Of a stretch of DNA of 64,000 bases, positions 2,371 through 62,604 are shown piece after piece. The stretch is taken from NCBI GenBank assembly GCA_001464585.1, contig LNFF01000044.1:1-64000 (forward strand), written 5' to 3'. The stretch comes from Gammaproteobacteria bacterium Ga0077554 (GTDB lineage Bacteria; Pseudomonadota; Gammaproteobacteria; Ga0077554; Ga007554). A program made the translations under genes and the position numbers. How positions within the stretch are numbered: the first letter of the stretch is position 1; each line of letters begins with the position of its first letter. The notes below the pieces were generated by a model, which did no database searches, had not been told where the DNA came from, and worked only from the letters and a program-made list of their open reading frames with translations.

Positions 2371-4641
2371 CTACACTATCTGCAAATTGGCATAGGCCAT
2401 GACCAGCCATTTGCTGCCGCTGGTTTTGAAGTTTACTTGTACGCGGGCGCGATCACCATCGCCTTCGTAGCTTAAGATCACACCGTCGCCAAACTTGCCA
2501 TGACGTACACGCTGCCCCAAACGTGGACGAACCATGACGTCATCCCCGGTATCTTGCTGGTAGTTATCAGCAAAGTGATTATGTGCAGCCGCCATGGGGC
2601 GTATGACAGAGGCGCGCGGCCGCACTTCGCGGATCAGTTCGGCGGGGATTTCATTGATGAAGCGCGAGGGTGGCGCATAGGTTTCTGTACCATGTAGCCT
2701 GCGTCGCTCGGCGCAGGTGATGAATAACTGTTGCCGGGCGCGGGTAATGCCCACGTAGCACAAGCGCCGTTCTTCTTCGAGACGCTCTGGTTCCTGGGTG
2801 GACATCTTGTGCGGGAACAAGCCTTCTTCCATACCGCACAAAAATACCAGGGGGAATTCCAGACCTTTAGCGGTGTGCAAGGTCATGAGCTGCACGCAAT
2901 CGTCCCATTCATTACCTTGGCCTTCACCGGCTTCCAGCGCGGCATGTGAAAGAAACGCTTGCAGTGGGCTCATGCCTTCGGCCAATTCGGCGCTGGTTTC
3001 ATATTCGAATTGACGTGCGGCGCTCACCAGCTCTTCAAGGTTTTCAATGCGCGTCTGGCCTTTATCGCCTTTTTCCTTGCGGTAATGATCAAGCAGCTTG
3101 CTGTGCGTGAGCATGGTGTCCACTTGCTCGGCAAGATTAAGCTGCGCCACGTCATTGGCCAGTTTTTCGATAAGCTCAATGAATGCAGCAAGTGGGCGGT
3201 TACCAGTAATTGCGGCTGTCGCCTGCCAGAGTGATACGCTGTGTTGGCGAGCGTGGCTGCGCACTATTTCCAGGCTGCGTTCACCGATGCCGCGCGTCGG
3301 TGTATTCACCACCCGCTCAAAAGACGCATCATCGTCACGGTTTTCAATCAGGCGCAGATAGGCTAACGCATCCTTGATTTCAGCGCGTTCAAAAAAGCGC
3401 AGGCCGCCATAGATGCGGTACGGCATACTGGCATTCAGCAAGGCATCTTCCAGCACGCGTGATTGCGCGTTGGAGCGATATAATATCGCGACGTCGCGGC
3501 GCATTGGCGCACCAGCGCCATTCAGTAAACTACCTTGTTCTATCCGACCGCCATGGATGGGGAGAGCGAAGCGAGGGGGGTTGCTGGAAACGCAGGAGCG
3601 GTTTTCCAGCCATTGCTTGATACGTTCGACGATGAAGCGTGCCTCGTCGAGATCGTTAAATGCGGTGTACGCAACTATTGGCTCGCCTGACTCGCCTGCT
3701 GTCCACAAGTTTTTGCCGAGGCGTCCCTGATTGTTGGCGATTAACGCATTGGCGGCGTTCAGAATGGTGCTGGTGGAGCGGTAATTCTGTTCCATGCGCA
3801 ACACCCGCATGCCCGTAAATGCTTGCTCGATTTTACGGATATTTTCGACGCGCGCACCGCGCCAACCATAAATGGACTGATCATCATCACCGACAATAAA
3901 TAGTTTTCCCGAATCGCCCGCCAGCAGGCGCACCCAGGAGTATTGAATGGCATTGGTGTCCTGAAATTCGTCTACCAGCACATGGCCGAAGCGTTGCCGG
4001 TAATGGGCGAGTATGTCAGGATTTTTCTGCCATAGTTCCTGCGCACGTAACAGTAGCTCGGCAAAATCCACCATGCCGCTGCGCTGACAGGTCTCTTCAT
4101 ACGTTTGATAAATGCGCATCATCTGCCGCGTATAAGGATCGCTATTATCCTGCACCTGCTGTGCTCGCATGCCTTCATCTTTGCGGGCGTTGATAAAGCC
4201 TTGCGCCTGTCGCGGTGGCCAGCGTGCTTCGTCCAGTTCCAGCGCCTTGAGTATGCGGCGGATAACGCGGTATTGGTCGTCGGAATCGAGAATCTGAAAC
4301 GCTTGCGGCAACCCGGCCTCGCGCCAATGGGCGCGCAATAAACGATGCGCCAGACTGTGGAACGTGCCGACCCACATTCCACCACCGACCTTTTCACCCG
4401 TCACACTGAGAAGTTGCTCAATGCGGCCACGCATTTCAGCCGCCGCTTTGTTGGTGAATGTGACGGCCAGTATGCTGTGAGGGGATACCCCTTCCACGCC
4501 CACCAGCCAGGCGATGCGATGCACCAGCACCCGTGTTTTGCCGCTGCCAGCGCCCGCCAGTACCAGCAGGTGGCCGGGCGGGGCGCTGACAGCGTCGCGC
4601 TGGGCATCATTGAGGTCATCGAGAATGTAGGAAACGTCCAT
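2371..4641 (-). CDS. uvrD: DNA helicase II UvrD, with an inserted repeat-encoded segment
   Basis: Superfamily 1A 3'-5' helicase of nucleotide excision and mismatch repair. Walker A is AGAGSGKT (about residues 29-36). Other motifs are FTNKAAAEM (Ia), VDEFQDTN (II), VGDDDQSIYGWRGA (III), YRSTSTILNAAN (IV), TLHTAKGLEFPLVFLCG (V) and YVGITRARQQL (VI). The C-terminus GQRVRHGKFGDGVI...KWLVMAYANLQIV is the UvrD-type Tudor-like tail. At 756 residues it is about 36 longer than E. coli UvrD. Most of the excess is a segment around residues 344-366 (reading SSNPPRFALPIHGGR) just before RRDVAILYRSNAQSR. That DNA is a copy of a repeat also found in hemS and near 48.1 kb. All helicase motifs are intact, so I infer the insertion is tolerated. 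Confidence 0.95.
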   Translation of the reverse strand: MDVSYILDDLNDAQRDAVSAPPGHLLVLAGAGSGKTRVLVHRIAWLVGVEGVSPHSILAVTFTNKAAAEMRGRIEQLLSVTGEKVGGGMWVGTFHSLAHRLLRAHWREAGLPQAFQILDSDDQYRVIRRILKALELDEARWPPRQAQGFINARKDEGMRAQQVQDNSDPYTRQMMRIYQTYEETCQRSGMVDFAELLLRAQELWQKNPDILAHYRQRFGHVLVDEFQDTNAIQYSWVRLLAGDSGKLFIVGDDDQSIYGWRGARVENIRKIEQAFTGMRVLRMEQNYRSTSTILNAANALIANNQGRLGKNLWTAGESGEPIVAYTAFNDLDEARFIVERIKQWLENRSCVSSNPPRFALPIHGGRIEQGSLLNGAGAPMRRDVAILYRSNAQSRVLEDALLNASMPYRIYGGLRFFERAEIKDALAYLRLIENRDDDASFERVVNTPTRGIGERSLEIVRSHARQHSVSLWQATAAITGNRPLAAFIELIEKLANDVAQLNLAEQVDTMLTHSKLLDHYRKEKGDKGQTRIENLEELVSAARQFEYETSAELAEGMSPLQAFLSHAALEAGEGQGNEWDDCVQLMTLHTAKGLEFPLVFLCGMEEGLFPHKMSTQEPERLEEERRLCYVGITRARQQLFITCAERRRLHGTETYAPPSRFINEIPAELIREVRPRASVIRPMAAAHNHFADNYQQDTGDDVMVRPRLGQRVRHGKFGDGVILSYEGDGDRARVQVNFKTSGSKWLVMAYANLQIV
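3544..3611 (-). repeat. Intragenic palindromic repeat B inside uvrD
   Basis: About 68 bases, read on the minus strand: a hairpin with arms CTGGAAA/TTTCCAG around CGCTCCTGCG, then CCCTCGCTTCGCTCTCCCC, then CATCCATGGCGGTCGG. The hemS copy (16435-16500) shares nearly all of the last part but has different, still complementary, hairpin arms. The uvrD frame stays open through it. Exact ends are uncertain because there is no uninterrupted homologue here to compare. Confidence 0.75.
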
Positions 4642-6192: not shown

Positions 6193-6240
6193 TTGACAGG
6201 GTGTTTACCTCCGTAGTAGTATTGATAATGATTCTCATTT
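6193..6240 (+). promoter_or_regulatory. Fur-regulated promoter of the first tonB-exbB-exbD operon
   Basis: TTGACA at 6193-6198 and TAGTAT at 6217-6222 (18-base spacer) form a possible promoter. GATAATGATTCTCATTT at 6224-6240 is a close match to the Fur box and would overlap the start of transcription, so iron-loaded Fur should repress it. Predicted from sequence only. Confidence 0.75.
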
Positions 6241-6278
6241 AGATCTATTTCGGTGCCGGGTCGTTGGAGGCCACACCT

Positions 6279-16081: not shown

Positions 16082-17311
16082 ATGTCCATGCAAAGTGCTG
16101 CGCCAGTATCTCCGGCATCTCAATCACCACGTCCATCCATGCGCAATCTTCGGCGCCAGTTTCCGCATAACATTTCACAGGCAGAATCCACCTCGCGCCT
16201 CTATGGCATCGCCGAACACTTTGAGGTTTCCGAGGCCGAACTGCTGGCAACCCGCTGCGGCGACACCGTGACGCGCCTGCATGCCCGCTGCTGGAGTGAA
16301 CTTGTCAGGGAGCTGCCAAAACTGGGTTGCGTCACGGCGCTGACCCGCAACCGTCACGCCGTGCATAAAAAAACCGGCACCTACCGGAATCGGAATACGC
16401 CGTGCATGGATGCACAAGTGCCGCCAGAGGCAGGTCGAAAAAATGCTCCTGCATTTTCGACAAACCCCCTCGCTTCGCTCTCCCCATCCATGGCGGTCGG
16501 ATGCCGGAAGCGGCCCCGGAATACAGCAAACGCCGCTGGGGAAATCGCACCACAACTGTTTTTGCATCATTGGCAGAGTGGTTTCGGCGTTGTTGAAGAA
16601 ATAAACGTCGGCCAACATCTCACCCTGCGCCGCAGCCTGCAATTTTTTGACCCTGCTGGCACCGTAGTGCATAAAGTATTTTTGATGGAAGATAGCAACC
16701 ACGATGCCTATGAAACTCTGGTAAAACACTTCACCAGCGCCGACCAGTCTCCTGAGCAACGGGTCTCACTCGTTCCCAAACCCCTCCGGCAGCAGCGTGA
16801 CAGTGACATTGACATCAAGGGATTGCGCGCTTACTGGCACGCGCTACGCGATGCCCGTGATTTTGCCAGTGGTTTTAATGGCATGCTCGAACGGTTTGGT
16901 GTGATACCCATACAAGCCCTGCGCCTGGTGGGCAACGATCTTGCTTATCGCGTGGCGCCGACAGGTTTCCGTCAACTTATGGAAGTCATCGTCGAACTGG
17001 GGCTGCCCATCACCGTCTCTGTAGGTAGTTCCGGTGTAACACAAACCCACACCGGGCTAATCCACGATCTGCACACCGTCGGATCATGGCTGAGCGTAAG
17101 GGAACCCGGATTTGTGTTGTACCTGCGTGAAGACCGTATCCATACCGCGTGGGTGGTGAAAAAACCCAGCGCCGACGGCATGGTCGCCGCGCTGGAACTG
17201 TATGACGCGAAGGGAGAAAATATCGCCGTGCTGACTGGCGCCGGGCAGGCGTGGGCAGAAGTCTGGCGCGATGCGGTGTCTACCCTGCGTCCATTGGATC
17301 CCGCCTCATGA
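16082..17311 (+). CDS. hemS: HemS/HmuS-type haem-degrading or haem-carrier protein, with a nested repeat insertion
   Basis: 409 residues from the ATG at 16082 (AAGGAG 9 bases upstream). It is a two-lobed HemS/HmuS/ChuS protein, which binds haem taken up from outside and carries or cleaves it in the cytoplasm. Lobe 1: YGIAEHFEVSEAELLATRCGDTVTRL ... TRNRHAVHKKTGTY; lobe 2: DIKGLRAYWHALRDARDFASGFNGMLERFGV ... VGSSGVTQTHTGLIHDL. Residues 106-145 are not HemS-like: they are encoded by a palindromic repeat (16399-16516) that itself contains another repeat (16435-16500). Lobe 1 normally continues here through a segment like HVGLVLG that is missing or altered, so lobe 1 may be damaged while lobe 2 looks whole. 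Confidence 0.88.
   Translation: MSMQSAAPVSPASQSPRPSMRNLRRQFPHNISQAESTSRLYGIAEHFEVSEAELLATRCGDTVTRLHARCWSELVRELPKLGCVTALTRNRHAVHKKTGTYRNRNTPCMDAQVPPEAGRKNAPAFSTNPLASLSPSMAVGCRKRPRNTANAAGEIAPQLFLHHWQSGFGVVEEINVGQHLTLRRSLQFFDPAGTVVHKVFLMEDSNHDAYETLVKHFTSADQSPEQRVSLVPKPLRQQRDSDIDIKGLRAYWHALRDARDFASGFNGMLERFGVIPIQALRLVGNDLAYRVAPTGFRQLMEVIVELGLPITVSVGSSGVTQTHTGLIHDLHTVGSWLSVREPGFVLYLREDRIHTAWVVKKPSADGMVAALELYDAKGENIAVLTGAGQAWAEVWRDAVSTLRPLDPAS
16399..16516 (+). repeat. Nested palindromic repeats inside hemS: repeat A split by repeat B
   Basis: Repeat A left part 16399-16434 contains the hairpin GTGCATGGATGCAC and ends GAGGCAGG. Repeat B occupies 16435-16500: hairpin TCGAAAA/TTTTCGA around TGCTCCTGCA, then CATCCATGGCGGTCGG. 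Repeat A resumes at 16501 as ATGCCGGAAGCGGCC. Removing B restores GAGGCAGGATGCCGGAAGC exactly as found in sbnC and sbnH. The 66-base B keeps the hemS frame. Confidence 0.85.
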
Positions 17312-19168: not shown

Positions 19169-20190
19169 CTATGTCATCGAAATCGCCGGATGTTCTCTAT
19201 CTCAACCGCAGCGACATCGTCACATTGGGCGGCGAACACTCGCACATCTATGTTGATGCGGTAGGCGACGCACTGGCCGCGCACGCCTGCGGCGACTATG
19301 TGCAGCCGCTCAAGCCCTATCTGCGCCGGCCCGGCGCGGATCACATCGCCGACCGCATCATTGCCATGCCCGCTTATCTTGGCGGAGAGCCGGCGATCGC
19401 CGGCGTGAAGTGGATCGGCAGCAGGCATGACAACCCGTTGCAACGCGGGCTGGAGCGCGCCAGTGGTCTGATCATCCTGAACGATCCCCAGACCAATTAC
19501 CCCATCGCCATCATGGAGGCCGGCCTGATCAGCGGCATGCGCACGGCGGCTGTCACGGCCGTCGCGGCCCGCCATCTGGCCAAAAAGGGGTTCGCGCACC
19601 TTGTTTGCATCGGCTGCGGCCCCATTGCCCGCATGCAGTTGACAACGATGCTCGAACAATTCCCGTCCATCGACAGGATCCACGTCTTTGACCGCAACCC
19701 GGATGCCGCCGAGTATTTGATCGAAGACGTCGCGGCGCATTTTCCCAAGATCAACTATCGGATTGAAACCGACGCCGAAAGCGCAATCGGCATGGCCGAG
19801 GTATTGGTGACATGCACGGTCGCCGATCAACCCTACATTTCATTTGACTGGTTACCTAAAGGCGCGTTCATCAGCAATGTCTCCATCATGGATCTGCACA
19901 AGGAAGTCTTCCTGAAAGCGGACAAGGTCGTGGTGGATGATTGGGAGCAGTGCAACCGCGAGAAAAAGATCATCCACCAACTGGTCACCGAGGGATCGTT
20001 CTCCCGCGCACGGCTGTACGCCGAACTGGGTGAGATCGTCATCGGAGCAAAGCCGGGGCGGGAGTCGGATGACGAAATCATCCTGCTGAACCCCATGGGG
20101 ATGGCGATCGAGGATATCGCCTGCGCGCGTCATTTTTATCATCTGGCGCAGGCACGCGGCGTTGGCACGCAACTGCCGCTGTACGGTTGA
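19165..20190 (+). CDS. sbnB: SbnB-like dehydrogenase (ornithine cyclodeaminase family)
   Basis: 341 residues, overlapping sbnA by four bases (ATGA). Ornithine cyclodeaminase/mu-crystallin fold with a Rossmann segment (FAHLVCIGCGPIARMQL ... RIHVFDRNPDAAEYLI). In the staphyloferrin B pathway SbnB oxidises the SbnA product to L-2,3-diaminopropionate and 2-oxoglutarate, and both products are used later. The pairing with sbnA is the established hallmark of diaminopropionate synthesis. Confidence 0.87.
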   Translation: MTMSSKSPDVLYLNRSDIVTLGGEHSHIYVDAVGDALAAHACGDYVQPLKPYLRRPGADHIADRIIAMPAYLGGEPAIAGVKWIGSRHDNPLQRGLERASGLIILNDPQTNYPIAIMEAGLISGMRTAAVTAVAARHLAKKGFAHLVCIGCGPIARMQLTTMLEQFPSIDRIHVFDRNPDAAEYLIEDVAAHFPKINYRIETDAESAIGMAEVLVTCTVADQPYISFDWLPKGAFISNVSIMDLHKEVFLKADKVVVDDWEQCNREKKIIHQLVTEGSFSRARLYAELGEIVIGAKPGRESDDEIILLNPMGMAIEDIACARHFYHLAQARGVGTQLPLYG

Positions 20191-20195
20191 GCCGC

Positions 20196-22011
20196 ATGCA
20201 AACCCTACCCTCTCATCCGTACGCGCGCCGACTGACCCAAGACCTGTTCGATGCGCTCTGGCTGGAAGATCTCTACGGCTTTCGCAAGTACTGTATTTTT
20301 TCATCGATGGCTGACGGCGAAGGGGTTCTGGAAGTCACGCTGGACCGTGTACGGTCGCTGCACTGGCACGGACGCCGCGCCACCGGTCTGCGCCCATTCA
20401 GGGTTTCGAGCCGACCTGTGGTGTTGCATAGTGCTACGCAGGTGGCGGACTTGGAGGTGGTCGAGGTTGTCGAGACATTGCAAACAGCGGACTGGTGGAA
20501 TGACCGGACAGACCGCTTTGCCCGGTTCTTCCGACTCGCCTGTGATCAGGCCGCGTTCGCGGCAGAGCGTGAATCCAATGTCGTGGCGCGACTCGGTGCC
20601 GCACCGGAGGATTTGCTGTCCTGGGAAGCCTTAAGCTGCCTGAAAGACCGGCCATTTCACCCGCTGGCGCGCACCAAGGACTGGGAAGAGGGCGACAGCA
20701 CCCTCTACGCGGCCGAAACTATGACGCCCTTCCCGTTGCATTGGGTGGCTCTACCGCGAGACCGGGTACGAAGCGCCGCCCCCATCGCCGGGCAACCCCT
20801 TGCGGAGACCCTGCTCGACGGCACACAACGGGATAGGCTGAGCGCAACCGCCCGCACCTGCGGCGCCGGCGGCGATGACTGCGTGTGGCTGCCGGTCCAT
20901 CCGTGGCAATGGGCGCGGCTCAACCGGCTGGCGCCGCCGGAACTGGTCGGCTGCATCGACCTGGGGACGGGGCCGGGAGCGGCGATCCCGACCGCTTCGC
21001 TGCGCACGCTCGCTGTCGTCGGGCGTTCCGGCGCCGCACATGGATGTGCAAGTGTCGCCAGAGGCAGGATGCCGGAAGCGACCACACATCTCAAGCTGGC
21101 ACTCTCCGTTAACACCTTGGGCGTAGTTGAGAACCCTGCCGCCGCGCTACCTGCATAACGCCATGCTCGCCAGCGTTTGTCTGGAAAGCCTACATGAGCG
21201 GGACAACTGGCTGGCAGCGCACCTGCTGCTGTGTGACGAAAATCACTGGTGGGCACTGCGGCAGAGTGATTTGCTGGAAGACGATCCGGGTGAACTGGCC
21301 TGCCTGATCCGCCATTATCCGGCGCTGCCCAGTGCAACGCTGATCCCGATGGCGGCGCTCCCGGTGATAACCGCTGACGGCACGCTGCCAGCATTCGACC
21401 ATCTGCTGGGTCGCACTGCGCGCGAAGACGAGGCTTGGACGTTGTTCGCCGACATGACTCGCGCTTTACTGGAGTTGGGTCTGCGCTGTTTCGCGCAAGG
21501 GGTGATGCCGGAACTGCACGGACAGAACGTGTTGCTGGCCTTTCAGGGGCGGCGGATCGTCGCGCTGGTTCTGCGCGACCACGACACATTGCGCATCTGC
21601 CCACCGCTGATGCAGGCCCAAGGTGTGGCAGTGCCGGACTACATGTTTGACCGTAGTGCGCCCAACACGCTGGAGCTGGACACGCCGCGCGAACTGCTGG
21701 CTTATCTGCAAACCTTGGCCATCGAGGTCAACCTGTACGCCATTCTCGCCGCGCTGGCCGAGCGCTATGGCCGGGAAGAGGCGCACGGCTGGCATATTGT
21801 CCGCACGGCGCTGGAAGCCTGTCTGGTGCGCGTGCCGCTGCCGGATGAAATCGCCGGTCAGACGAAGAGCCTGCTGCTGGATGAACCCATTTGGCCATTC
21901 AAACAGCTATTGGCACCCCTGCTCGCCCGCCCGATCCTCGGTACCGGCATGCCCAGCGCCATGGGGCAACTGGTCAATCCCTTGCTCTGCCCATCGAGCC
22001 ATAACGGATGA
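20196..22011 (+). pseudogene. sbnC: SbnC-like IucA/IucC siderophore synthetase, frameshifted and carrying repeat A
   Basis: Two reading frames together cover a NIS synthetase of about 605 residues. The first (to 21158) holds the N-terminal half with DCVWLPVHPWQWARL and the ATP-site region. The second (from 21127) holds MRTLPPRYLHNAMLASVCLES ... FAQGVMPELHGQNVLLAFQGRRIVALVLRDHDTLR, the catalytic half. They are joined by one extra base near 21129. A 50-base palindromic repeat lies just before (21034-21083), reading AHGCASVARGRMPEAT, in frame. In the known pathway SbnC attaches 2-oxoglutarate in the last step. Either the gene is dead, or the frameshift is an assembly error; neighbouring genes are intact. 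Confidence 0.82.
21034..21083 (+). repeat. Palindromic repeat A inside sbnC
   Basis: Fifty bases with the hairpin GCACATGGATGTGC, then AAGTGTCGCCAGAGGCAGG and ATGCCGGAAGCGACC. The sbnH and hemS copies have arms GTGC/GCAC in place of GCAC/GTGC around the same ATGGAT centre. Confidence 0.85.
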
Positions 22012-23230: not shown

Positions 23231-25063
23231 ATGTCCCTACACTCACCGGAACTTGCGCCAATAGAACGACGCTTGGTGGAGCAGTACCTCAACACCTATT
23301 GCCGGGAAACCGGTTGTTTCGACCCACGCCTTGCATCTAGCGAACCGGGATCCATCGAATTGCGCGCGCAGATTGAAATCTGGCGGGCTGCCGGACTGAT
23401 GCCGTATCGGGTGTCGTTTGCCGGGACCGGGTATCAGTTGGCCGGCGCGCTGAGCTACTTCTCGCCGATCGGCTACCACCGCGTGGCGCCGTTCGCGTGG
23501 ATCGGGCGGCACGGCGACTGGCGGCCCCTGATCGACGACGTGATGCCACTCGTCGATCTGATCGCCGACGCGCTCGCCGCGGCCAGCAAGCTTCCTGCCG
23601 ATATGGCGAACCACCGTCGCGACCGCCTGAAGACACAGATGCGCAACAGCGTGGACAAGGTGCGTCGCTTCCACCGGCACCCGCCTACTGGGGCGCGTTC
23701 GCCTTTCCTGACAGCCGAGCAGGGCCTGCGCTTCGGCCACATTTTCCATGTCACCTCCAAGGCTTCGGAAGGCTTTAGCGAGGAAGACATGCAGCGCTAC
23801 GCCCCCGAGTTGGGGGCGTCATTCCGCCTGCATTACTTCGCGGTGGCCACCAGCCTGCTGGACGCGCGCGTCCTGGACGGAGAACCCCTGCTGATCGATC
23901 CGGAAGCGACCCGCTTTGCCGCGGATTTGCTGGCCGGTGGCGATTATCGGCTATTGCCTTGCCACCCCTGGCAGGCCAATTATCTGTTGGGCCTGCCTGA
24001 AATTAATGCGCTGGTAAAAAGCGGCTCGCTGATCTCGCTGGGCCCGTTGGGTGAAGTGGCCTGGCCCACATCCTCGGTACGCACGGTGTGGTTGCCTGGT
24101 CAAAGCCTGTTCCTCAAGCTGTCGCTCGATATCCGCATCACCAATTTCATACGTAACAACCCGCCCGAGCAGGTCGAGCGGGCGCTGGATGCCAGCCTCG
24201 CACTGTCCTTGCTGCCATGGCACGTGCTCGAACAATCCGTGTTCCGCATCCTTCCGGAGTTGGGCAGCCAGACTTTAAAGCTGTCGAGTGAAGCGCTGCG
24301 CGCCGCTTGCGCGGTGGTGTACCGGCAAGCGATGCTACCTGAGGAGGCCGGGCACGTTCAGGTGGTCGCGTCGGTGCTGGAGGAACCGGCCGATGGAGAG
24401 ATCCCCTTGATGGCCTTGCTGCGGCAAGCCGCCGGGGGGCAAACGCCCGACGAGGCGCTGGTTCGGATGTGGTGGACGCGTTACCTCGACGTCATGCTGC
24501 TGCCGTTGCTGCGCCTGTTCTCGGATTACGGTATCAGCCTGGAAGCACATCTGCAAAACGCCATGGTGGCTTTCCGCGACGGCTGGCCGGTGCGCGGCTA
24601 CGCGCGGGATATGGAGGGCACCAGCATCAGCCGCGCGCGCTTCCCGTTCCTTGATCGGCTGAAGCCCGACAGTCCTGCGCTTTATGGGGAAGAACAGGCA
24701 TGGTATCGCTTCCAGTATTACGTGCTGGTCAATCATGTGGGCCATGTGATCGCCTGCCTGGCCCGCACCGGACTGACCACCGAGGCCGTGCTGTGGCAGG
24801 ACACGGCAGAGCGGCTCGATGCGACCGGCAACCCGCTGGCGCAGCAGTTACTCAACCAGCCTACGCTGCCGGCTAAAGCCAACATGCTCAGCAGTTTCCA
24901 TCAACACGGCGAACGTCCAGTCTGGGTCGAAATTCCAAACCCCATGCTGGTTCGCAGTTCTTGCGCATCCCTGCGACGTGCAGGGATGCGCAAGTGTCGC
25001 GGGAGGCAGGATGCCGGGAGCGACCGCTCACTGCACTTGGGCATCCTGCCCGGCGAAAGGTAA
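23231..25063 (+). CDS. sbnE: SbnE-like IucA/IucC siderophore synthetase with a repeat-derived C-terminus
   Basis: 610 residues of the NIS synthetase family (ATP-dependent amide formation to citrate). The family motifs include RFGHIFHVTSKASEGFSEEDMQRYAPEL, LPCHPWQANYLLG, TSSVRTVWLPGQSLFLKLSLDIRITNFIR and GISLEAHLQNAMVAFRDGWPVRGYARDMEG. In the known pathway SbnE couples citrate to the first diaminopropionate. The normal protein seems to end near IPNPM; residues 577 onward come from a repeat (24961-25060), and the stop follows directly. The catalytic core is complete. Confidence 0.9.
   Translation: MSLHSPELAPIERRLVEQYLNTYCRETGCFDPRLASSEPGSIELRAQIEIWRAAGLMPYRVSFAGTGYQLAGALSYFSPIGYHRVAPFAWIGRHGDWRPLIDDVMPLVDLIADALAAASKLPADMANHRRDRLKTQMRNSVDKVRRFHRHPPTGARSPFLTAEQGLRFGHIFHVTSKASEGFSEEDMQRYAPELGASFRLHYFAVATSLLDARVLDGEPLLIDPEATRFAADLLAGGDYRLLPCHPWQANYLLGLPEINALVKSGSLISLGPLGEVAWPTSSVRTVWLPGQSLFLKLSLDIRITNFIRNNPPEQVERALDASLALSLLPWHVLEQSVFRILPELGSQTLKLSSEALRAACAVVYRQAMLPEEAGHVQVVASVLEEPADGEIPLMALLRQAAGGQTPDEALVRMWWTRYLDVMLLPLLRLFSDYGISLEAHLQNAMVAFRDGWPVRGYARDMEGTSISRARFPFLDRLKPDSPALYGEEQAWYRFQYYVLVNHVGHVIACLARTGLTTEAVLWQDTAERLDATGNPLAQQLLNQPTLPAKANMLSSFHQHGERPVWVEIPNPMLVRSSCASLRRAGMRKCRGRQDAGSDRSLHLGILPGER
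24961..25060 (+). repeat. Extended palindromic repeat A at the sbnE-sbnF junction
   Basis: Two hairpins. The first pairs TGCGCATCCCTGC with GCAGGGATGCGCA. The second pairs GGCAGGATGCC with GGGCATCCTGCC. The common core AAGTGTCGC.GGAGGCAGGATGCC is shared with the copies in sbnC, sbnH and hemS. The end of the repeat (GAAAGG) lies 7 bases before the sbnF start and may serve as its ribosome site. Confidence 0.85.
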
Positions 25064-27601: not shown

Positions 27602-28845
27602 ACCTGCAACACTTGCGCAATTATCTGGAGAGCCGCACGGAACCCGTGTGCGCCTACCTGTATGATCTGGCGCACTTGCGCCAGCGCGTCGACATGCTGC
27701 GCCGCTCGCTCCCCCTACAGTGCAAGCTGTTCTACGCCATCAAAGCGAACAACGACGCGCTGATCCTGCAGGCGTTACTCAACCGTACCGACGGCTTCGA
27801 AGTGGCATCGCTGGGCGAAATCCAGCGCGTGCGCGCCATCGACGGCGACGTGCCGATCGTGTTCGGCGGTCCCGGCAAGACCGATGCCGAACTGGAAGGC
27901 GCTCTGGAGCAACGGGTCATGTTGATCCACGTGGAAAGCGAACACCAGTTGCGGCGACTCGACTGGATCGCGCGCCGCCGCAATCTGGTGGCGGACATCC
28001 TGTTGCGCGTCAACCCGGCACACGTGCCGCCGTGCATGGATGCACAAGTGTCGCCCGAGGCAGGATGCCGGAAGCGACCGCAGCAGGCCACGCTGCGCAT
28101 GGGTGGGCAAGCCACCCAGTTCGGCATTGAAGAGGCGCAGATCCCCACTCTCATCGAATTGGCCCAGACCCTGCCGGGTGTCCGCCTTAAGGGGCTACAC
28201 ATTCATGCGATCTCAAATAACCTGAACGCGCAGGCCCATCTCGCTCTGGTGGAACACTACTTCGATCTGGCAGAAGCATGGCAGCGCCGCTACCGTCTGG
28301 TGTTTGAGTGTCTCAATGTCGGTGGCGGAATCGGCGTGAACTATGCCGACCCGCACGTGCCGTTCCACTGGGAAGGTTTCTGCGCCGGACTATCGGCGCT
28401 TATCGCGGCGCGGCGCCCCGGCTTCCAGATCGTCTTCGAGTGCGGGCGGTTTATCGCTGCCGACTGCGGCTATTACCTCGCCGAAGTCACCGACGTGAAA
28501 ACCAACCACGGCAAACACTTCGCGATTCTGCGCGGCGGGTCGCACCATTTCCGGCTACCAGTGTCCTGGCGGCACAACCATCCGTTCATGGTACTGGCGC
28601 GCGACGCGTGGCCTTACCCATTTTCGCGTCCAGCCGTGCACGATGCCCCGGTCACATTGTGTGGCGAGCTCTGCACACCCAAGGACATCCTGGCGCGCGA
28701 CGCCCATGTCGAGCGCCTACGCACGGGCGATTGTGTGGCCTTCCTGCTGGCCGGCGCCTATGGCTGGCACATTTCCCATCACGACTTCTTGAGCCATCCC
28801 CATCCCGAACGGGTGTACCTGGACAACGGTATGGAAAGGGTCTGA
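27598..28845 (+). CDS. sbnH: SbnH-like PLP-dependent decarboxylase with in-frame repeat A
   Basis: 415 residues of the fold-III diaminopimelate/ornithine decarboxylase family. The PLP lysine is in CKLFYAIKANNDA (about residue 47), and phosphate- and substrate-binding segments FECLNVGGGIGVNY and LCGELCTPKDIL follow. SbnH decarboxylates the citryl-diaminopropionate intermediate. Residues 145-161 (PCMDAQVSPEAGCRKRP) derive from a repeat and sit between RVNPAHVPP and ATLRMGGQATQFG, a loop of the barrel just before the substrate region. The frame is open to the end, so a working enzyme is likely if the loop tolerates it. Confidence 0.88.
   Translation: MNLQHLRNYLESRTEPVCAYLYDLAHLRQRVDMLRRSLPLQCKLFYAIKANNDALILQALLNRTDGFEVASLGEIQRVRAIDGDVPIVFGGPGKTDAELEGALEQRVMLIHVESEHQLRRLDWIARRRNLVADILLRVNPAHVPPCMDAQVSPEAGCRKRPQQATLRMGGQATQFGIEEAQIPTLIELAQTLPGVRLKGLHIHAISNNLNAQAHLALVEHYFDLAEAWQRRYRLVFECLNVGGGIGVNYADPHVPFHWEGFCAGLSALIAARRPGFQIVFECGRFIAADCGYYLAEVTDVKTNHGKHFAILRGGSHHFRLPVSWRHNHPFMVLARDAWPYPFSRPAVHDAPVTLCGELCTPKDILARDAHVERLRTGDCVAFLLAGAYGWHISHHDFLSHPHPERVYLDNGMERV
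28030..28079 (+). repeat. Palindromic repeat A inside sbnH
   Basis: Fifty bases: hairpin GTGCATGGATGCAC, then AAGTGTCGCCCGAGGCAGG and ATGCCGGAAGCGACC. It is almost identical to the sbnC copy apart from the swapped hairpin arms. Confidence 0.87.
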
Positions 28846-33524: not shown

Positions 33525-34011
33525 GGCGCTTGATCTCGCCCTGGCCCTGACCGCGAGCTACCTCGGCTTCGCCTGCCTGGCCTTATCAATGCCCAGGCAT
33601 TGGCGGGACGTGACCAGTGATCTGGCGCTGCCTGCGGGACGCGTCACCGCCTTGCATGCGATCGGCTACTCGGCGTTGGCCGTGAGCCTGGTGCTTACGC
33701 TGCTGCGCGATGGAGCGAGCTTTGGCAGCGTGCTGTGGGTGCTGGTGCTGACGGCCGGCGCCGCCACAGTTGCCTTCACCCTGACGTGGCGGCCCGCCTG
33801 GCTGCGGCTGGCGGTGCGAGTAGCGCGAGTAGCTCAGCGGCGGTTCTTGCGCATCCCTGCGCTCACCGCACTTGGGCATCCGCCGTGCAGGGATGCACAA
33901 GTGCCGCCAGAGGCAGGATGCCGAAAGCGGCCTGCCCGGCGTAAGCCGCGTGCCCGCCAGCGTGAAGAACGAGGCACGCGCAGCAGCGACGACAAGGATC
34001 CGAAGTATTGA
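33517..34011 (+). CDS. DUF3325-like membrane protein with a repeat-derived tail
   Basis: 164 residues, overlapping the PepSY gene by eight bases. Three membrane helices in the first 105 residues (LDLALALTASYLGFACLALSM, ALHAIGYSALAVSLVLTLL, VLWVLVLTAGAATVAFTLTW) fit DUF3325, a companion of PepSY proteins in iron loci. Residues from about 111 onward (RIPALTALGHPPCRDAQVPPEAGC...) come from repeat A and then run on as an Arg/Lys-rich tail that should lie in the cytoplasm. The normal protein would stop soon after the third helix. Confidence 0.75.
   Translation: MHEALDLALALTASYLGFACLALSMPRHWRDVTSDLALPAGRVTALHAIGYSALAVSLVLTLLRDGASFGSVLWVLVLTAGAATVAFTLTWRPAWLRLAVRVARVAQRRFLRIPALTALGHPPCRDAQVPPEAGCRKRPARRKPRARQREERGTRSSDDKDPKY
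33848..33942 (+). repeat. Extended palindromic repeat A at the end of the DUF3325-like gene
   Basis: TTGCGCATCCCTGC pairs with GCAGGGATGCACAA; between them lies GCACTTGGGCATCCGCCGT. The core AAGTGCCGCCAGAGGCAGG and ATGCCGAAAGCGGCC follows, then TGCCCGGCGT as in the pilX copy. Confidence 0.85.
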
Positions 34012-35829: not shown

Positions 35830-35872
35830 GATCAATCACCCAAGTTGATAACCTGAGGCTTACTATAAATCT

Positions 35873-35892
35873 AAATGAGAATGATTGTCAAT
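35873..35892 (-). promoter_or_regulatory. Fur box ahead of bfd
   Basis: AAATGAGAATGATTGTCAAT matches the Fur consensus (GATAATGATAATCATTATC) at most positions. It lies in the divergent gap between bfd and exbB2. Confidence 0.78.
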
Positions 35893-35990
35893 ACATTTTA
35901 GATTCGCGTGTGGGTCGAGTGTATCGACTATTATGAATCCAGCGTTATCAGCCCCACGGAGTAAATTAGGCTCGATTTGTAGCATAAGGC

Positions 35991-61983: not shown

Positions 61984-62604
61984 TCATAGAATCCTTGCGT
62001 AATCGCTTTGTAGCATGACCACCGCATTGTCGCTGCCACCGGTGGCGCGTACCGTGATGCGGAAAAAGGTGATTGGTGGTGGAGGCTGACAGCTGTAGCA
62101 GGTGGCAAGCGCTACGTTAGCACTAGCCTGCGGTACGATTTGTCCCAATTCTATGATATAGCGCGGTTGGGTGGTGATGCCTGGCAGCGTACCGGAATAG
62201 GCTCTGGAGTTGGTGGAGTTCCAGGTGCTGGCAAGGGTTATGTCGGGCCCACCGCCCATCGCGTAAAGCCCGTTAGTATTGTTAAATCCTCCCGTTCCTA
62301 CCATGCCAGTCATCAATGCTTCAGCGTCGCGCAGTGTGCTTTCTGCTGCCTGAAACGCCTGGTTCTGGTCACTGCTGTTCCCCGCCATTTTTTCTTCCAG
62401 AGCAGACGTGCCCATAGCGGTGACGCCGATCAGCGTCAGCACTAGCAGGATCAGCATGCTGACGATCAATACGGAGCCTTGCTGTTTCTGCGCATCCCTG
62501 CGCCCACAGCACTTGGGCATCCGCCGTGCAGTGAGGCACAAGTGCTGCCAGAGGCAGGATGCCAAACGCAGCCCGCCCGGCGTTGGAGTGCTAATAAAGT
62601 TCAT
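61984..62604 (-). CDS. pilX: Type IV minor pilin PilX with a repeat inserted in its leader
   Basis: 206 residues from the ATG at 62604. The mature pilin start GSVLIVSMLILLVLTLIGVTAMGTSALEEKMAGNSSDQNQAFQAAESTLRDAE is typical of PilX, which lacks Glu5. The leader before the cleavage Gly is normally about 6-15 residues; here it is 43 residues (to Gly43). Residues 7-39 (PTPGGLRLASCLWQHLC...) are encoded by repeat A at 62489-62586. They are rich in Cys and Arg. Whether prepilin peptidase still processes it is uncertain; an internal start downstream of the repeat would be the alternative, but none with RBS is seen. Confidence 0.88.
   Translation of the reverse strand: MNFISTPTPGGLRLASCLWQHLCLTARRMPKCCGRRDAQKQQGSVLIVSMLILLVLTLIGVTAMGTSALEEKMAGNSSDQNQAFQAAESTLRDAEALMTGMVGTGGFNNTNGLYAMGGGPDITLASTWNSTNSRAYSGTLPGITTQPRYIIELGQIVPQASANVALATCYSCQPPPPITFFRITVRATGGSDNAVVMLQSDYARIL
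62489..62586 (-). repeat. Extended palindromic repeat A inside the pilX leader
   Basis: On the plus strand TGCGCATCCCTGCG, GCACTTGGGCATCCGCCGT, GAGGCACAAGTGCTGCCAG and AGGCAGGATGCC, then GCCCGCCCGGCGTTGG, in the same order as the copy at 33848-33942. It is 98-99 bases, and the pilX frame is kept. Confidence 0.85.

Follow-up and report, generated by a model that had tools for sequence, protein, structure and literature searches.

The hemS gene in the window, by which we mean the whole 64,000-nt stretch of DNA analyzed, carries one repeat nested within another: an element B of 66 nt lies in the apical loop of a hairpin of a 51-nt element A. We consider it probable that A and B are related mobile hairpin elements, that B enters the loop of A hairpin 2, and that the insert in hemS is a nest of this kind. 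G000, a genome of 2.91 Mb in 44 contigs, contains the window as its contig 44, and most of the genomes compared with it appear to be MAGs.

The hemS insert and its two elements

The regions of homology to HemS, query residues 42-104 and 154-403, lie on either side of the insert. The features in the window are as follows.

16082..17311, forward strand: hemS, the host gene, encoding a haemin-degrading protein of the HemS/ChuS family (409 aa; frame open across the insert)
16398..16514, forward strand: the whole composite A::B, 117 nt = 39 codons, HemS residues ~106-145
16398..16434, forward strand: left part of A, with the CGCC lead, hairpin 1 (GTGCA TGGA TGCAC), the AAGTG linker and the 5' arm of hairpin 2 up to GAGGCAGG
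16435..16500, forward strand: the long, 66-nt form of element B, lodged in the apical loop of hairpin 2 of A
16435..16460, forward strand: hairpin of B (TCGAAAAAATGCTCCTGCATTTTCGA; z = -7.6 for short B)
16501..16514, forward strand: right part of A, the 3' arm of hairpin 2 (ATGCCGGAAGCGGC)
21032..21082, forward strand: A copy inside sbnC, a gene frame-shifted shortly downstream in this assembly
24974..25024, forward strand: A copy at the sbnE C-terminal tail / sbnF overlap
28028..28078, forward strand: A copy in sbnH (decarboxylase), in frame
33881..33931, forward strand: A copy in the C-terminal tail of a DUF3325 protein
62522..62572, forward strand: A copy near the N-terminus of a PilX-like ORF (ORF on the opposite strand)
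3544..3609, reverse strand: B alone, long form (66 nt net), within uvrD; ends uncertain by 1-2 nt

The hemS insert reads CGCCGTGCATGGATGCACAAGTGCCGCCAGAGGCAGG, then 66 nt, then ATGCCGGAAGCGGC, with the last base of GAGGCAGG at 16434 and the first base of ATGCCGGAAGC at 16501. Without B it is the 51-mer CGCCGTGCATGGATGCACAAGTGCCGCCAGAGGCAGGATGCCGGAAGCGGC, one base off A-only copies elsewhere in the genome. The initial annotation had described B inside A inside hemS, with matching A copies in sbnC and sbnH, and we confirmed each of these along with three more A sites in the window. It had placed the insert at 16399-16516; the composite is real, and its outer ends, which we fixed from the 51-nt unit and from exact empty sites at other genes, are shifted from that span by 1-2 bases. 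Its statement that both A and B have lengths that keep the hemS frame open was correct. In a phmmer alignment, an Arg at HemS residue ~259 stands opposite His196 of Yersinia HemS, which we take to be the axial haem ligand of that protein.

We gathered A sites by pattern, BLAST and covariance model. The 19-mer pattern of the A core gave 94 matches in the genome versus 4 for a reversed control, far more than chance would give; 85 sites were catalogued in G000, and the covariance model found 136. The unit is 51 nt long: tandem copies recur every 51 nt, and comparisons with empty sites give +51. It folds into two hairpins, with standard pairs in 96.7% of pair cells across 42 distinct copies from many genomes. 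Seven pairs have changed on both sides. None of 500 shuffles matched these figures and slid controls came nowhere near them, and the apical motif GAGGCAGGATGCC is nearly invariant. Copies free of stops in all six frames made up 39 of 70 in this genome and 77 of 96 in others, compared with 17% of dinucleotide shuffles, the copies not being independent of one another. Some variants of A (L103, L086, L087 and others, and model matches of 69 and 66 nt in G000) have a hairpin 1 that is longer by 15-18 nt (AGAGCGNNAGCGAAGGGTTC), and this enlarged sequence resembles the 15-nt extra piece of long B.

Element B occurs as 51-nt and 66-nt forms; the copy in hemS is of the long form, and the other five composites of G000 have the short one. 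When B was aligned with reverse-complemented A the score was 12, as against -6.6 ± 3.5 for shuffles (0 of 5000 as good) and -11 for the forward orientation. B and reverse-complemented A are equal in length and share, in unchanged order, the blocks TCCTGC, CGACACTT and CATCCATG, with differing stems. These likenesses suggest that B is a diverged subfamily of A's superfamily, oriented opposite to its host A, an apparent kinship that the initial annotation overlooked.

Occupied and empty sites in genes

A mechanical count placed 57 of the 85 A sites in open frames that are 120 codons or longer and extend 25 codons or more to either side of the site; some copies are intergenic. Many G000 genes carry A in frame, for example pheT, gpsA, glk and smc, and hosts confirmed by Pfam are PheT, GpsA, CoaX, alanine racemase, KdtA, glucokinase, 6-phosphogluconolactonase, SMC and SbnH. 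Comparison with relatives showed exact insertions of 51 nt in G000 only at pheT and pgl, and likewise an exact +51 at alr, the relatives being empty at all three, while at gpsA A accounts for 51 of an additional 57 nt. At glk, G000 has +51, the sister species G002 retains a 27-nt remnant from which 24 nt have gone with the frame preserved, and other relatives are empty. The glk remnant shows A persisting by vertical descent, with trimming. In-frame inserts were +51 in pheT, pgl, glk, alr and etfB, +102 in sat/cysC and +117 in hemS. No target duplication was visible at pheT, glk or etfB, where the net insert equals the 51-nt unit; pgl is ambiguous in this respect because its target resembles the element end.

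Several minor observations concern individual sites. The alr gene of G002 (L246) has a different 69-nt element close to the position of A in G000. The sbnC gene (window 20187-22011) is split across two frames, matching the IucA_IucC profile at 3-145 and then at 160-237 plus FhuF; the frame changes ~40-60 nt downstream of the A copy, by pseudogene formation or sequencing error. Three MAGs (L117, L171 and L191) have A at apparently the same place of the same gene (...ENYERMKSAVMEE-like), which suggests old common insertions outside this family.

B also occurs by itself. At one site in uvrD it adds exactly 66 nt in G000 and exactly 51 nt in G002, and five other relatives are empty; B therefore inserts by itself, and the two forms replace each other at a single site. 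The proposal that B is or was mobile is borne out by this lone copy, whose site is exactly empty in relatives, and by repeated entry of B into different A copies. Just upstream of B, uvrD of both G000 and G002 has a separate 24-nt hairpin insert (~TGGCGCACCAGCGCCA) that is not present in the other relatives.

Recurrence of the nest, its order and its mechanism

Six composites occur in G000, hemS and five others, all with the junction GGCAGG-B-ATGCC. We found at least four more in the sister species G002, including one whose host A has a slightly divergent core, and another in one genome of a different family, where the stem of B is compensated. Among composites, the B parts are 0-3 bases apart and the A parts, compared in register, up to 18 of 51. 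Every composite A part is nearest, or tied nearest, to some A-only copy, and a label permutation showed no greater clustering among composites than among A copies drawn at random (P 0.45). A single clade of composites was rejected (AU p 0.0002 for six composites and 0.037 for five, the five-composite tree requiring five changes), and a clade of hemS, L003 and L004 was not (p 0.25); these trees rest on 51-nt alignments with a small phylogenetic signal. Compounds of repeats around A likewise exist with B (L003, L004 and L006) and without it (L065, L067 and L072). Since B hardly varies, and the A parts are diverse and do not form one clade, the simplest account is that B entered the same loop, that of A hairpin 2, repeatedly.

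Nesting also runs the other way. At six sites, including one in another MAG, a 51-nt A lies inside a B-type element, a reverse arrangement that the initial annotation also missed. At L005 (G000:C31:89561), one A seemingly holds two guests, a B in hairpin 2 and another B-type element in the hairpin 1 loop.

The stages of this Russian-doll insertion system, tolerated inside essential proteins, are seen as empty, single and nested sites at other genes of close relatives, and on that ground the system is real. At etfB the outgroups G001, G003, G004 and G005 are empty, G000 carries only A (+51), and the A of G002 has B in its loop, a nest that is incomplete at one end because the contig stops inside A. 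At yhdP a host element is common to G000 and G002 and missing from G001; the occupant of its loop is a reversed A in one of the two species and, in the other, a long B. At sat/cysC a full 102-nt composite is present in G002, with G000 and G004 empty, so composites might also move as wholes.

This last possibility could be extended to every nest: B would have entered A once, long ago, and the composite, itself mobile, would have been copied to all of the ~10 sites, hemS included. The identical junction in all six G000 copies, the near-constancy of B and the sat/cysC composite fit such a history. It is nevertheless improbable as a general account, given A parts that are far more diverged than their B parts and closest to A-only copies, the absence of clustering, the rejection of one clade, and the alternation of A and A::B at the orthologous etfB site and in paralogous compounds. 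The etfB series counts against it in its pure form; hemS alone may still fit it.

We judge equally improbable that replication switched templates at hairpin tips, without transposition, B being a tip copied from another locus. The position of guests in loops, the interchange of short and long B at one uvrD site, the reversed A and long B in nearly the same yhdP host loop, and the failure to find a transposase would all suit it. Against this, A and B also stand alone in genes for which exact empty sites are seen and no earlier hairpin is evident, and for these an ordinary insertion is needed.

The initial annotation had proposed that A came first and B second. This order is directly visible at etfB, whereas hemS taken alone gives none: we found no hemS relative in a search of the genome contigs, hemS was not found in either of the two same-genus genomes searched, and a composite that may move whole leaves the order at the locus itself unprovable. 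With composites at at least ten sites, and one present at sat/cysC where a sister is empty, hemS, for which no close orthologue was found, may have gained its composite in one step. We nevertheless regard A first and B second as the likely order at hemS. The converse, in which every nest began with B and precise excision of B left the A-only copies, is very unlikely. Precise excision in G000 would produce an identical etfB pattern, and both etfB and the paralogous compounds show just two occupied states, a picture that excision would give too. A-only copies, however, are far commoner and class-wide, found in 55 of 274 gammaproteobacterial genomes in a sample drawn across the class; the exact composite pattern occurred in only 2 of 369 genomes scanned, plus G002, and compounds without B are present in other genera (L014 and L026). 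Finally, ordinary intergenic REP or MITE debris with chance readthrough, or an artefact of MAG assembly, is scarcely credible, for although the data are of MAG type and several contigs end in repeats, the same elements occur in named isolates (Gilvimarinus, Lysobacter, Arenimonas and others) and as exact in-frame inserts inside Pfam domains of essential genes.

Under the reading that we prefer, mobile hairpins with repeated entry of B into A, the two would be related, non-autonomous elements, each made of two stem-loops and basically 51 nt long, with a further 66-nt form in B, that insert without visible target duplication. Because their lengths are multiples of three and their consensus is stop-free in six frames, they could land in genes in either orientation, an insertion adding 17, 34 or 39 residues with the reading frame unbroken. 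Survival in frame probably reflects selection against stops and frameshifts, not frame sensing. The preferred landing site of B would be the apical loop of A hairpin 2 (GGCAGG^ATGCC), and the hemS insert one such nest. Insertion may target a folded single strand, and the mover may be an enzyme acting in trans, perhaps a single-strand transposase of the HUH/Y1 type; we offer such a single-strand mechanism for A and B tentatively. A Y1 transposase as mobilizer was not supported by a search of ten Y1 gene regions (from G000 and four relatives) with A and B patterns, in which the only A- or B-like sequence was one A-like copy within ~1.7 kb in G002, with no flanking pair. No mobilizer was found for A or B in G000 and its relatives. 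It is rather doubtful, though conceivable, that A and B belong to a class-wide superfamily of two-hairpin, coding-compatible mobile elements whose members target each other's loops site-specifically (B entering hairpin 2 of A, and A settling beside hairpin 2 of B) and nest in essential proteins by means of an unrecognized enzyme acting on folded single strands.

Relation to known repeats and distribution

Rickettsia palindromic elements (RPEs; Ogata et al. 2000, 2002) are short palindromic repeats of several families, found in frame in many unrelated genes, ~150 bp long and with a CGTC tag at one end (PMC10969869, PMC3733652). Like them, A lies in frame inside many unrelated protein-coding genes, and its mobilizer was likewise not found. 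Compared by description with RPEs, A differs in its 51-nt length, its two stem-loops, its occurrence across the Gammaproteobacteria and its site-wise nesting. CGTC forms the first four bases in 3 of 70 A copies from this genome and 5 of 96 from others, most having CGCC, CGAC or CGAT, and since the end tag is missing from most copies we did not assign A to the RPEs. A works like RPEs yet is none.

GTAG and CGTC REPs are small stem-loop repeats, sometimes intragenic or inside other palindromes, and the CGTC types have no known transposase (PMC3733652). They are mostly intergenic and consist of a single stem-loop of 20-40 bp, whereas A and B are 51-nt units of two hairpins with no defining tag, and A, unlike these REPs, has a GAGGCAGGATGCC core that hardly varies. 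Only 1 of 70 own and 2 of 96 other A copies contain GTAG or its complement at any position. Bacterial MITEs resemble A and B in being non-autonomous, interspersed and occasionally in frame (PMC10969869), but A and B apparently lack long terminal inverted repeats and, at the sites checked, show no target duplication; the inverted repeats of A lie within its two separate hairpins rather than at its ends (an IS parent was sought among Y1 types). RAYT/TIRYT systems, with their Y1 tyrosine transposases, would suit hairpin substrates and duplication-free insertion, and Y1 genes are present here, but those inspected are not flanked by A or B. For GTAG REPs, CGTC REPs and MITEs alike, at least one of the features tested is missing here. 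We found no description of the A/B repeat in the literature searched, and the family is apparently unnamed, of a known general kind, with loop-targeted nesting as its unusual feature. The window had no Rfam match at the gathering score, with a single chance match at E 0.33.

The exact A core was present in 89 stretches of the GTDB genome set, almost all from Gammaproteobacteria, and the isolates with it include Gilvimarinus, Lacimicrobium, Lysobacter, Arenimonas, Stenotrophomonas and Methylomonas. Phage and plasmid collections yielded one 28-base phage match and one Lonsdalea plasmid match, and an E. coli collection none; A being nearly absent from these collections, no vector was found.

In-frame palindromic elements in genes have so far been seen chiefly as a peculiarity of Rickettsia, with scattered REP cases elsewhere. 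The A family has entered genes for a tRNA synthetase, glycerol-3-phosphate dehydrogenase, glucokinase, electron-transfer flavoprotein and others. The stages preserved in sister species make it testable how selfish hairpins without a transposase move, and the system likewise makes testable how proteins accept ready-made inserts of 17 to 39 residues. The encoded peptides, which take forms such as PCMDAQVSPEAGCRKRP or VASGILPLATLVHPCTA, will distort gene models and domain alignments in many MAGs.

Two further kinds of repeat were noted in the window. Between 1355 and 57450, other interspersed repeats (families D1-D11) of the TGTCATTTCGA.../TCCTCGCTACGCTCGGAATGACA type lie in intergenic regions and resemble TGTC-tagged REPs. 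At 6219-6248 and 35865-35894, an inverted pair, GTATTGATAATGATTCTCATTT, is Fur-box-like and stands beside iron genes.
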